Positions 2,239 to 63,534 of a stretch of 64,000 nucleotides of DNA are shown here, in pieces; the first letter of the stretch is position 1, and every line of letters begins with the position of its first letter. Source of the stretch: an uncultured Ectothiorhodospiraceae bacterium. Lineage in GTDB: Bacteria; Pseudomonadota; Gammaproteobacteria; UBA6429; Thiohalophilaceae. The translations under genes and the position numbers were made by a program. Location: NCBI GenBank assembly GCA_947258695.1, contig CAMYJG010000001.1:62001-126000 (forward strand), written 5' to 3'. Under the pieces are notes generated by a model. It did not search any database. It was not told where the DNA came from and worked only from the letters and a program-made list of their open reading frames with translations.

Positions 2239-3692
2239 ATGTGAAAAATTATATCATTTTTGTTTGCATGATTATAACCATGCCTGTCATAGCACAAGAT
2301 AAATCAGAATTAACAATATACCAGGTTATGCAACGTGTACTTGATCGCTATCCATCATTAAAAATCTCTGAAATGGAAGTTGCACAATCACTAGAACAAC
2401 GTAAACAAGTTGAAAGTCAACTAGGGTGGATATTAAATAGTTCAGCGGGCATCAATCATGATTTAACAGGTTTTGGTACACCTTCGGATAGCTTAGATAT
2501 TAACGGTGAAATTACTCGGCAATTAAAGTCCGGTTCAAGCTTAAGTTTAAGTGGTGGTTACCGCTATGAGGATAACTCATTATCATTTAGCCCGTCGTTA
2601 CCTAACCCTGCTCATACAACAAGACTTGATTTAAGTTACCGTATACCACTATTGCAAGGTGAGAATAACCCGCTGTATTCACAGGGACTTATTGAGGCGG
2701 AACTAAGTCATGATTTGGCAAAAGCCAATCAACTGTTAACACATATTACATTAGCAGAGAAAGTCAAAGACCTATATTACGCAACTGCATTGACACAAGC
2801 ACGTTTAGATAATGCAAAAGAATCTGTGCAGCGTGCGCAAAAATTTAAAGCTTACATTAATAAAAACATTAAGATTGGTTTAGCCGAAGAAAAAGATCGT
2901 TTACAGGCTAATGCTCAATTAAATTCTAAATTATCAGATCTGAGTTCAATTAAATTAACCTGGGAAAAACAAAAATCGTCATTGAATCGGTTAATGCTCG
3001 AGGACTGGGATGCAGATATACAGCCTAAACTATTAAACTTTAAAAGTTTTGACCAGAATTTAAATACAATTATTGCTATTACTAAAAATTATCACCCTGC
3101 AATAAAAATTGCAGATGCAAACTTATCATTGGCTGAAAGTCAAATTAACACTGCAAGAGACACAATGAAGGATAATCTTGATTTTGTTGTGTCTGTTGGT
3201 ACCAGGACATCAGACGGTAACAATGCCTCAGGTAACTCAATCAGTGAAAAAGATTGGGCAGGCGCTGTTCGCTTTGAGTATCGTCATTTATTTGATGATC
3301 AGGGGGTTAATGCGAAACTTAAACAAGCACAATTACAAAAAAATATTGCATTAAATGAAGTGCAGAAAATTTCTGATGATATTAATTATACAGTGTCTGG
3401 TTTAATCTCAGAAATTCAAGCCGCTAAAGTCGCTGTCGCTTCAGCACTTGATAAGTTAAATAGTGAATCTTTAAAATTAAAAGAAGCTGTGCAACGATAT
3501 AGAAATGGTCGAGCTGATACAGATCAGGTTATCCAATTTCAAAATGACTATTCATTTTCAGTATTGGCTTATCAAAGCCAACGCATAGGTTTAAATCAGC
3601 GCATTATTGCATTAGATATATTTACCGGGCGATTTTGGTCCAGGTTATCTCTACCCCCGGCTGAAATGGGCGAAATGGAAGCAAAACAATGA
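2235..3692 (+). CDS. TolC-family outer membrane efflux protein
   Basis: Signal peptide, OEP-like coiled-coil pattern (LTIYQVMQRVLDRYPSLKISEMEV...), ATGA overlap with the RND gene. Confidence 0.87.
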   Translation: MNVKNYIIFVCMIITMPVIAQDKSELTIYQVMQRVLDRYPSLKISEMEVAQSLEQRKQVESQLGWILNSSAGINHDLTGFGTPSDSLDINGEITRQLKSGSSLSLSGGYRYEDNSLSFSPSLPNPAHTTRLDLSYRIPLLQGENNPLYSQGLIEAELSHDLAKANQLLTHITLAEKVKDLYYATALTQARLDNAKESVQRAQKFKAYINKNIKIGLAEEKDRLQANAQLNSKLSDLSSIKLTWEKQKSSLNRLMLEDWDADIQPKLLNFKSFDQNLNTIIAITKNYHPAIKIADANLSLAESQINTARDTMKDNLDFVVSVGTRTSDGNNASGNSISEKDWAGAVRFEYRHLFDDQGVNAKLKQAQLQKNIALNEVQKISDDINYTVSGLISEIQAAKVAVASALDKLNSESLKLKEAVQRYRNGRADTDQVIQFQNDYSFSVLAYQSQRIGLNQRIIALDIFTGRFWSRLSLPPAEMGEMEAKQ

Positions 3693-60881: not shown

Positions 60882-60912
60882 AACTGCTCTTTCTGTTTCA
60901 GCGAGAGCAGTT
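60882..60912. terminator. Hairpin between the convergent OMP and maf genes
   Basis: AACTGCTCT-N13-AGAGCAGTT, perfect 9 bp arms, between converging gene ends; no clean T-run. Confidence 0.5.
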
Positions 60913-61486
60913 ATAAAATAAAAAAGCTTTCATTTTCTAACATTCTGACTAATCGAATCAAAGGTAACCCCATTAAAGTATTCGGGTCGTCACCTTCGAG
61001 CTTATCAAATAAAACAATGCCTAATGCTTCTGACTTAAAACTGCCTGCGCAATTATAAGGCTGTTCTTTTTGTAAGTAGCTTTCAATGAGTTGTTCATCG
61101 AGTTCGCGAAAGACAACACTAAAAGGAACAACTTCAGATTGATATTGTTTTGTTGCTGAGTTGTACAAACAAAGCCCGGTATAAAATATCACTGTTTTAC
61201 CCGATGCTTTTTTTAATTGCTTAACTGCATTTTCATGTGTGTGTGGTTTACCCATTATTTCATTCTTGATAACTGAAACCTGATCAGAACCAATCACCAG
61301 GGCATCATCAACCTTATCGGCTATCGCTTTTGCTTTTTCAATAGATAAACGTTCAACCAGTTGTTGCGGTGTTTCATTATCACATGCAGCTTCATCTATT
61401 TCTGGTGAAGCTGTATCAAAATCAATACCCAGTTTATCCAGGATAGCTTTTCGAAAAGGGGAGGTTGATGCAAGAATAAGTTTCAT
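60911..61486 (-). CDS. maf: Maf-family nucleotide pyrophosphatase
   Basis: 'MKLILASTSPFRKAILDKLGIDFDTASPEIDE', 'ALVIGSDQV'. Start refined to 61486; the upstream ORF extension lies in the repeat. Confidence 0.94.
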   Translation of the reverse strand: MKLILASTSPFRKAILDKLGIDFDTASPEIDEAACDNETPQQLVERLSIEKAKAIADKVDDALVIGSDQVSVIKNEIMGKPHTHENAVKQLKKASGKTVIFYTGLCLYNSATKQYQSEVVPFSVVFRELDEQLIESYLQKEQPYNCAGSFKSEALGIVLFDKLEGDDPNTLMGLPLIRLVRMLENESFFIL

Positions 61487-61502: not shown

Positions 61503-61720
61503 ATTGCCACGAAGGACACAAAGAACACCAAGAAAACATATAAAAAACCACGGGGAACACGGGGAGGGCACGGGGACATAAATTTCAAATTAAAAATTAT
61601 CTATTGCCTTCCCAGTGTACTCCGTGTGGCCCAGGCCAGTCTCTCAACTATAAGCCTCACCATTTCCCAAGTGGTTCAAGCTTTTCTTTTCTTCGTGTTC
61701 TTTGTGTCCTTCGTGGCAAT
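61503..61720. repeat. Palindromic intergenic element with 34 bp near-identical inverted termini
   Basis: Left attgccacgaaggacacaaagaacacCaagaaaa (61503-61536); reverse complement of right arm (61687-61720) attgccacgaaggacacaaagaacacGaagaaaa; inner arms ccacggggaacacggggaggg.. / ccttcccagtgtactccgtgtgg also pair imperfectly. Confidence 0.93.
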
Positions 61721-61722
61721 CT

Positions 61723-63534
61723 TTAGCCAATTTCAATTAGGGTTTCATCCGGTGTGACACTATCACCCTTGGCAACATGGATTGCTGCAACAACACCTGA
61801 TATTGATGCCTGGATTTCGGTTTCCATTTTCATTGCTTCTGTAATTAATACTGGATCGCCGGCTTTTATCTCATCGCCAATATTGACCAGCACCTCTATT
61901 ATAACCCCCGGCATAGATGTCGTTATATGACCCGCTTCTGTTGCCCGAGGCCGTTTACCACTTGCCGATGATTTACGTGACTGGTTATCATCTAGCTCTA
62001 ATTCACTTAAGGTTTCAACCATGATTTCTTCAGGTACGCCATCAATACTTAAATAATACGGACGCATGTCCTGTGTTCGATGACCTGCACCGGTTAATCC
62101 AATGTGATAAGTTTCACCGTGTATAGTGACATTAAATTCTGTCGCAGCACTATGCCCATTACCATCAACGTTTGCTGGTTCAAGTGCTTCTGGAACAAGT
62201 TTACCTTTGTCACGTTCTTCTAAAAACGTACGACCTATATCAGGGAACATCGCATAGGTTAATACATCATCTTCGTTATGCGCCAGGTTACCGATTTCTT
62301 TTCTTAGTTTATCCATTTCATCAGCCAGTAAATCTGCAGGTCGACAATCAATGACATCTTCATTGCCAATTGCCATCTGTCTGACTTGCGGACTTACTTT
62401 TCCCGGCGCTTTACCATAGCGGCCTTGTAAATATAGTTTTACTTCATTGGTAATGGTCTTATAACGCTCACCGCTTAAGACATTGAGAACCGCCTGGGTA
62501 CCGACTATTTGTGAAGTCGGTGTGACTAATGGCGGATAACCGAGTTCTTTTCTAACCAACGGAATTTCGCTAAGCACATCATTCATACGAGTAAGTGCAT
62601 CCTGCTCTTTTAACTGGTTAGACAAATTAGAAATCATACCTCCCGGCACCTGGTTTACCTGAACCCGGGTATCTAGTCCTGTAAATTCACTTTCAAATTG
62701 ATGGTATTTTTTTCTTACCTCGTAAAAGTAAAAACCAATTTCCTGTAACGCAACAAGATCAAGTTCACTGTCAAACTCAGTATTTTTAAAAGCGGCGACC
62801 ATACTTTCTGTTGGAGGGTGACTGGTTCCATCAGCAAAAGAAGATATCGCCGTATCAATACCAAAAGCGCCATTTTCAACAGCCTTATATTGACAAATAC
62901 TTGATAAGCCGGAAGTAGCATGCGAATGTAAATGAACCGGGATACTCACCTGATCAACTAATGCCTTTACTAAATCAGCTGTGACCACAGGTGTTAGTAA
63001 ACCTGCCATGTCTTTAATTACAATACTGTCGCAACCCATTTTTTCCAACTCACGACCAAGACTGATAAAATACTGTAAATTGTGATCAGGGCTGGTGGTA
63101 TAACAAATTGCACCCTGAGCATGTTTATTAACTTGTTTCACCGTATCAATCGATGTTTTGATGTTACGCAAATCATTCATAGCATCGAAAATACGAAAAA
63201 CATCAATTCCATTTTCAGCAGCTTGTTTTACAAAGGCGCGAACAACATCATCAGCATAATGACGATAGCCTAATAAGTTTTGACCACGCAATAGCATTTG
63301 AAGACGGGTATTGGGTAAAGCCTGTCGAAGTAAACGTAAACGTTGCCATGGGTCTTCTTTTAAATAACGGACACATGCATCAAACGTTGCACCACCCCAA
63401 ACCTCAAGGGACCAGTAACCTATTTTATCCAGTCGATCACAGATGGGTAACATGTCTTCAGTACGCATTCGTGTTGCAATCAGTGACTGATGAGCATCAC
63501 GTAAAATAGTGTCTGTAATATTTACTTTCGACAT
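61723..63534 (-). CDS. oadA: Pyruvate carboxylase subunit B / oxaloacetate decarboxylase alpha subunit (biotin carrier at C-terminus)
   Basis: 'ITDTILRDAHQSLIATRMRTEDMLPICDRLDKIGYWSLEVWGGATFDACVRYLKEDPWQRLR', biotinyl motif 'ITEAMKMETEI'. Confidence 0.94.
   Translation of the reverse strand: MSKVNITDTILRDAHQSLIATRMRTEDMLPICDRLDKIGYWSLEVWGGATFDACVRYLKEDPWQRLRLLRQALPNTRLQMLLRGQNLLGYRHYADDVVRAFVKQAAENGIDVFRIFDAMNDLRNIKTSIDTVKQVNKHAQGAICYTTSPDHNLQYFISLGRELEKMGCDSIVIKDMAGLLTPVVTADLVKALVDQVSIPVHLHSHATSGLSSICQYKAVENGAFGIDTAISSFADGTSHPPTESMVAAFKNTEFDSELDLVALQEIGFYFYEVRKKYHQFESEFTGLDTRVQVNQVPGGMISNLSNQLKEQDALTRMNDVLSEIPLVRKELGYPPLVTPTSQIVGTQAVLNVLSGERYKTITNEVKLYLQGRYGKAPGKVSPQVRQMAIGNEDVIDCRPADLLADEMDKLRKEIGNLAHNEDDVLTYAMFPDIGRTFLEERDKGKLVPEALEPANVDGNGHSAATEFNVTIHGETYHIGLTGAGHRTQDMRPYYLSIDGVPEEIMVETLSELELDDNQSRKSSASGKRPRATEAGHITTSMPGVIIEVLVNIGDEIKAGDPVLITEAMKMETEIQASISGVVAAIHVAKGDSVTPDETLIEIG

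Follow-up and report, generated by a model that had tools for sequence, protein, structure and literature searches.

A 218-bp palindromic element in the genome of an uncultured Ectothiorhodospiraceae bacterium (G000, a 3.2 Mb draft) belongs to a multicopy intergenic repeat family that very probably also comprises units carrying a GxxExxY gene between the same kind of inverted arms. The element lies in the 64,000-nucleotide stretch of DNA analysed here, hereafter the window, and we consider it at most fairly likely that it is a non-autonomous derivative of a GxxExxY element, mobilised by a candidate PD-(D/E)XK nuclease in the manner of REP sequences and their RAYT proteins. The association between gene and arms is strong; from the results below we infer that the nuclease mobilises the repeats.

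The element consists of two nested pairs of arms between two minus-strand genes, with the following features.

61503..61720, no strand: whole palindromic element of composite A(B) type, 218 bp, defined by arm pairing, fold and 41 paired copies in the genome
61503..61536, plus strand: left outer arm, type A (CCACGAAGGACACAAAGAACACCAAG), three 9-bp CACNAAG units; a 22-mer is shared with an arm of the C30 GxxExxY unit
61687..61720, minus strand: right outer arm, inverted type A copy with one mismatch, from arm pairing
61548..61568, plus strand: left inner arm, type B (CCACGGGGAACACGGGGAGGG); the GxxExxY genes of L113 and L114 lie between CCACGGGG arms
61607..61629, minus strand: right inner arm, diverged inverted type B copy, which the minimum-energy fold pairs with the left inner arm
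61484..61486, minus strand: maf start codon, probably the true one (ORF proper 60911-61486); maf identified by reading the protein sequence
61723..61725, minus strand: oadA/pycB stop codon, at a distance of 2 bp from the element (ORF 61723-63534); gene name from reading the protein sequence

The outer arms, each 34 nt long and separated by 150 nt, are 97% complementary (33 of 34 positions paired), in agreement with the first-pass annotation, which had described 34-bp inverted termini with a single difference, and the second, diverged pair of arms that it had reported inside them was located at 61548-61568 and 61607-61629. This nesting is one of two separate arm types, A outside and B inside, a distinction that the first-pass annotation had not drawn, just as it had not noticed the connection to GxxExxY described below. 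The prediction that the whole unit folds as a long hairpin was borne out by its minimum-energy fold (-99.3 kcal/mol versus -49.1 +/- 4.5 for shuffles, z = -11.2), and the 22-nt arm core occurs twice in the window versus 0 times expected by chance. The position between oadA and maf, 2 bp from the oadA/pycB stop, also held (ORF end at 61723); both genes lie on the minus strand and are co-directional neighbours of the element, the end of which is 16 bp from the maf start codon. A 225-aa minus-strand ORF begins within the element at 61588. Because the open frame runs through the element, the N-terminal extension of the maf ORF is a mechanical artefact, as had been suspected, and the plausible true start is at 61484-61486.

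Searching G000 with an IUPAC form of the arm and up to 2 mismatches recovered 91 half-sites, versus 1 for the pattern read backwards, and at least 41 elements of 57-457 bp could be paired, including one gene-bearing unit and one with an expanded arm; the element is thus not the single-copy sequence without homologues that the first-pass annotation had allowed for. Dozens of paired elements were also found in two congeners. None of the 41 elements in G000 falls within a long ORF, and all 127 elements of the three genomes are intergenic, mostly between co-directional genes. The termini in G000 are regular, with TTRG followed by CCACNAAG. Each arm contains a C(A/G)CNNAG-based unit repeated head to tail two or three times at a spacing of 8-10 bp, the window type starting with TTRG and then CCAC. 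Across the G000 elements the CAC and AAG positions hardly vary, unlike the N positions. Within a single element the arms agree with each other at N positions 4, 13, and 17 at a frequency of 0.51-0.61, versus 0.30-0.38 by chance. Inner CCACNGGG arms are present in 21 of the 41 copies, the window copy among them.

Several individual copies merit description. The closest relative of the window element (G000:C1:130134-130311; L002, L009; 85% over the first 124 bp) is located 6.4 kb away on the same contig. At G000:C16:27035-27459 (L067:12037-12459) one arm has grown to ~20 tandem 9-bp CACGAAGAA units, with an assembly N-run inside, and looks as though the 9-bp unit can slip. At G000:C30:2839-2967 and 3043-3153 (L065) lie two unrelated interspersed repeats, ~125 and ~90 bp long, the second reading CCCTCCCC...GGGAGGGTTAGGGAGGG, both with many copies in every member of the genus. 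A further short repeat, GACTGCATGGACGCAGGAGGTAGAGCAACGCAGGAGCAGTTGCCGAG, is inserted into several of the palindromes and intergenic sites (L213 in G001, L212 in G007, L203 in G006, and L317 in G003).

A profile search of G000 detected three GxxExxY loci (NCBIfam TIGR04256, Pfam PDDEXK_3), one of them a broken copy, and all three are flanked by inverted periodic arms. The left arm of the C30 unit holds the 22-mer of the window element; the arms at the C40 and C5 loci are CCACGGAGGTCACTGAGG-like and ACCGCAAAGACGCAGAG-like, respectively. The gene between the arms is a member of PDDEXK_3/TIGR04256 by the curated cut-off. In the genus this gene-bearing form, in which a GxxExxY gene is enclosed by inverted arms, measures ~460-600 bp. 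GxxExxY units are present at 1-5 copies per genome. An inverted arm pair was found near the gene in 25 of the 29 GxxExxY loci of G000 and its relatives, with an arm sequence that varies between loci and matches within each locus; at L102, one of the four loci lacking an inverted pair, two direct ACGCAAAG-type units adjoin the gene. Two further loci, L113 and L114 (the latter from Sulfuricellaceae), encode GxxExxY proteins 58-59% identical to the C30 protein of G000 and have flanking CCACGGGG arms, of the same type as the inner pair in the window. The gene-bearing unit of G004 also includes a non-coding A(B) palindrome beside the GxxExxY gene, and L114 has a non-coding palindrome in this position as well; gene-bearing units thus offer parallels to the nested anatomy of the window element. 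The L113 and L114 units occupy an equivalent location in different genomes, just upstream of a pilC-like gene (identified by eye; ~3800-4450 in L114), which may reflect either common descent or a preferred site.

The same arrangement extends well beyond the genus. A scan of one genome per species provided 80 GxxExxY loci in Bacteroidota, Chloroflexota, Planctomycetota, Verrucomicrobiota, Cyanobacteria, several proteobacterial classes, and a Dojkabacteria genome. Flanking arms were testable at 76 loci, one of them on a viral contig, against 348 control ORFs from the same contigs; 46 of the 76 exceeded the 99th percentile of controls and 41 reached the control maximum, while 30 did not pass. The CRCNNAG motif, which was picked after the arms had been inspected, has a density of 6.8 per 300 bp of GxxExxY flank versus 1.0 in the background, and its orientation is mostly forward on the upstream side of the gene and reverse on the downstream side; at least five occurrences were found at 55 of 70 loci versus 36 of 1257 background windows. 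GxxExxY genes are co-directional with both neighbours in 71 of 88 cases, versus ~61-64% in the background, which would fit read-through expression. No relative turned up in a phage collection, and one viral contig was found.

Arm type goes with protein type: elements with more similar proteins also have more similar arms (25 elements; Mantel rho 0.305, a value reached in 0 of 5000 permutations). For three arm types in eight genomes of the genus, we also scored half-site counts against the presence of a GxxExxY gene of the matching type. Type A half-sites number 90, 116, and 75 in genomes with the gene and 0-12 in those without it, the 12 being in G001, where no GxxExxY gene of that type was found. 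Type D (ACGCAAAG) half-sites number 72, 26, 17, 11, and 3 with the gene, which is a broken copy in the genome with 3, and 0-2 without it. Type C (CCACRGAGG) half-sites number 81 and 4 with the gene; a further 57 in G006 and 22 in G002 occur where no GxxExxY gene was found in drafts that are 93% and 88% complete. Permuting the gene labels within arm types gave p = 3.5e-4, a value to be read with the relatedness of the genomes and with our assignment of genes to types from their flanks. In the wide scan, a Flavobacterium arm pattern was found 40 times in one Flavobacterium genome and 20 times in another, versus 0 for the control.

The structure model of the GxxExxY protein (pLDDT 96.5) has its best Foldseek match in the Cas4 protein SSO0001 (PDB 4ic1; E = 6e-4), followed by AddAB and lambda exonuclease. 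Because the TM-scores are ~0.5, the likeness to Cas4 is a fold-class assignment only. Pfam likewise returned PDDEXK_3 together with a weak Cas4 match. All 29 GxxExxY proteins compared retain residues D69, E79, and K81 as well as the QxxxY motif without change, and three orthologues have dN/dS of 0.09-0.15. At the level of fold, then, the protein is predicted to be nearest to Cas4, a putative Cas4/RecB-like PD-(D/E)XK nuclease with its active-site residues kept.

Comparison of orthologous sites revealed both occupied and empty states. The C30 gene-bearing unit occupies the corresponding site in G003 and G004 and is common to three species by descent; it is absent from G001, G002, and G006, where the neighbouring genes almost abut. 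At the window site, G002 has no palindrome, and G006 and G007 have another arm type (CCACAGAGG) at or near the same spot. Presence or absence and changes of arm type were seen at four further C30 sites, and site E5 has four arm types across six species and none in G001 and G005; such differences would fit either repeated insertion or replacement of a resident element. At sites common to G000 and G003/G004 the interiors are strongly diverged, to a degree at which descent and replacement are indistinguishable. The first-pass annotation had proposed looking for empty sites and for flanking target duplications. The former exist, in sister species for the C30 unit and in G002 for the window site, but no target duplication was detectable in the 127 elements of three genomes (direct-repeat length 4.65 versus 4.53 when permuted, sd 0.09, maximum 4.78). 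A 10-bp TAATTTTTTC direct repeat beside the C30 unit, considered as a target duplication, had no match at other sites. The earlier suggestion of a MITE-like non-autonomous element is strengthened by the copy number, the empty sites in relatives, and the candidate autonomous partner, and the link drawn at that time to scattered intergenic repeats of environmental bacteria stands, given that the element is multicopy and has such a partner.

The interiors of the elements also change orientation. G003 and G004 share 24 sites whose flanks, enclosing one or more elements, can be aligned on both sides in a single orientation, and we retained the 17 at which the interior score exceeded the 99th percentile of unrelated pairs (94). 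The interiors are inverted at 8 of these sites and direct at 9. In the inverted pairs the flanks are fixed, the outer arm matches equally well in both orientations, and the arm's inner portion moves with the flipped interior, which places the exchange point within the arms. At the window site the inner loop is inverted between the two genomes (GAAAAGCAATATTTTC versus GAAAATATTGCTTTTC, same frame, by eye). Flipping is frequent on the scale of synonymous divergence, since the GxxExxY gene has a dS of 0.13 between G003 and G004. Both genomes are drafts, but usual read lengths exceed the ~30 bp arms, which makes misassembly an improbable explanation for all of the inversions.

These observations must be weighed against other explanations, the main one being that the palindromes are host-driven, with replication template switching and hairpin recombination spreading and flipping the repeats and GxxExxY either being carried along by the arms or acting as a nuclease to hold hairpins in check. 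Recombination between inverted repeats can by itself flip interiors through arm exchange, and some genomes have many arms and no gene found. Nonetheless, such host processes leave unexplained why a single gene family lies between arms across phyla when the 348 control ORFs are not so placed, and why arm type tracks protein type and gene presence, and we consider this account unlikely. An ordinary MITE, that is, a deletion derivative of an insertion sequence with a DDE or HUH transposase not seen here, would share the terminal inverted repeats, lack of coding capacity, multiple copies of 57-457 bp, intergenic location, and empty sites. The missing target-site duplication in 127 copies argues against a DDE enzyme, however, and the gene found so far between matching ends is GxxExxY, making this the least probable of the explanations.

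It is also highly improbable that the hairpins act in the mRNA between genes, as functional RNA or as a transcription or processing signal, and are kept for that role. The intergenic position of all 127 copies, mostly between co-directional genes, and the partly conserved pairing at variable arm positions would be compatible with such a role. The structured RNA suggested by the first-pass annotation nevertheless found no Rfam match up to E = 1 and no excess of G-U over A-C mismatches (135 versus 130 on the transcribed strand of co-directional copies in three genomes); an excess in G000 only (52 versus 34) vanished after the three genomes were pooled. Sister species commonly have empty sites, and the letters CAC and AAG are conserved, not pairing alone. 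Because these letters are nearly fixed while the N positions often mismatch, we rejected a pure hairpin constraint. Co-directional placement of the non-coding copies (80%) equals the background (83%), for which reason operon targeting was also dropped; a weak shift of these copies from divergent to convergent sites was observed (p = 0.044). A transcription terminator, likewise proposed earlier, found no support at the outer hairpin, which is not followed by a T-run; the only terminator-like match within the element lies in the inner arm, where a 5-pair stem on the minus strand carries a T tail, compared with 0.5 +/- 0.9 such sites in shuffles.

Among known systems, the closest parallel is that of REP/BIME/REPIN sequences with RAYT (TnpA-REP), or REPtron, which likewise combine high-copy intergenic palindromes with a low-copy gene flanked by its palindromes, a repeat type that tracks enzyme type, and no target duplication (PMC2817692, PMC3116915, PMC8266576). 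RAYT, however, is an HUH tyrosine transposase, whereas the protein here is a predicted PD-(D/E)XK Cas4-like one, known as the GxxExxY family (TIGR04256/PF13366 PDDEXK_3) by motif only. REPs are GTAG- or CGTC-tagged hairpins of 20-40 bp (PMC3733652), in contrast to the two or three periodic CRCNNAG units described here; the element termini have TTRG and CCACNAAG in place of a GTAG or CGTC tag. The bacterial MITEs RUP, NEMIS/Correia, ERIC, and YPAL resemble the element in size, terminal inverted repeats, intergenic location, and presence or absence at orthologous sites, but the element differs from them in its periodic arms, in having no target duplication found and no 5'TA3' ends, and in having no transposase relative seen so far (PMC2229807). 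The TAACTGA repeats of Beggiatoaceae are also short, periodic, intergenic, scattered over unrelated phyla, and of unexplained origin, and a protein binding them was speculated to be itself a mobile element; they are heptamer direct repeats for which no inverted arms or nuclease gene were described (PMC4679880).

Genes of the 23S rRNA intervening-sequence/four-helix-bundle family (PF05635) are similar in being small single genes of the same genomes, many with periodic inverted arms, but they differ in protein fold and in arm sequences, which are not CRCNNAG. We considered them as cargo of CRCNNAG arms and found none there; many have arms of other sequences. PF05635 loci of related genomes between periodic inverted arms (L235, L237, L240, L241, L248, L249, L251, L252, L253, and L254) have CTAG-, TTGAAT-, GGCAGT-, and CAGT-type arm alphabets, and GxxExxY is also present in 11 of the 14 genomes with these genes. 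These genes with their arms may be a second, parallel family.

If the window element derives from a GxxExxY element, the arms would extrude as a hairpin or cruciform, and the GxxExxY protein would recognise the CRCNNAG units of its own arm type and cut there; repair of the cut could then leave the interior flipped and could also give rise to new copies, at other intergenic positions, of elements whose arms match. Several points count against this reading. The C30 unit is inherited in three species and GxxExxY units number only 1-5 per genome; host recombination alone could produce the inversions; type C (G006, G002) and type A (G001) half-sites occur in genomes in which no gene was found; and 30 of 76 cross-phylum loci remain below the arm-test threshold. 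A broader version, in which GxxExxY units are autonomous elements moved by a lone Cas4-like nuclease that drives flipping, arm types are specificity groups, and these units are the source of all scattered CACGGAG/CACGAAG/CGCAAAG palindromes across phyla, is possible, and we propose it tentatively.

A search of the open-access literature returned no report linking GxxExxY to flanking repeats and none of six arm oligos; the GxxExxY domain is named there in passing and PF13366 is also mentioned, and a REP survey has no mention of CACGAAG or CACGGAG words. As far as this literature shows, the link between GxxExxY and the repeats is provisionally new. Periodic palindromes are abundant in environmental genomes, with no partner known so far in the same literature, and GxxExxY genes are annotated in many genomes by motif name only; the link gives both gene and repeat a directly testable explanation, and connects a candidate enzyme with bacterial intergenic repeats of a widespread but so far unexplained class. 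The rule that arm type follows protein type offers a simple aid for annotating many intergenic repeats. If the nuclease does move the repeats, this would be a route of transposition without DDE, HUH, or serine/tyrosine recombinase chemistry.
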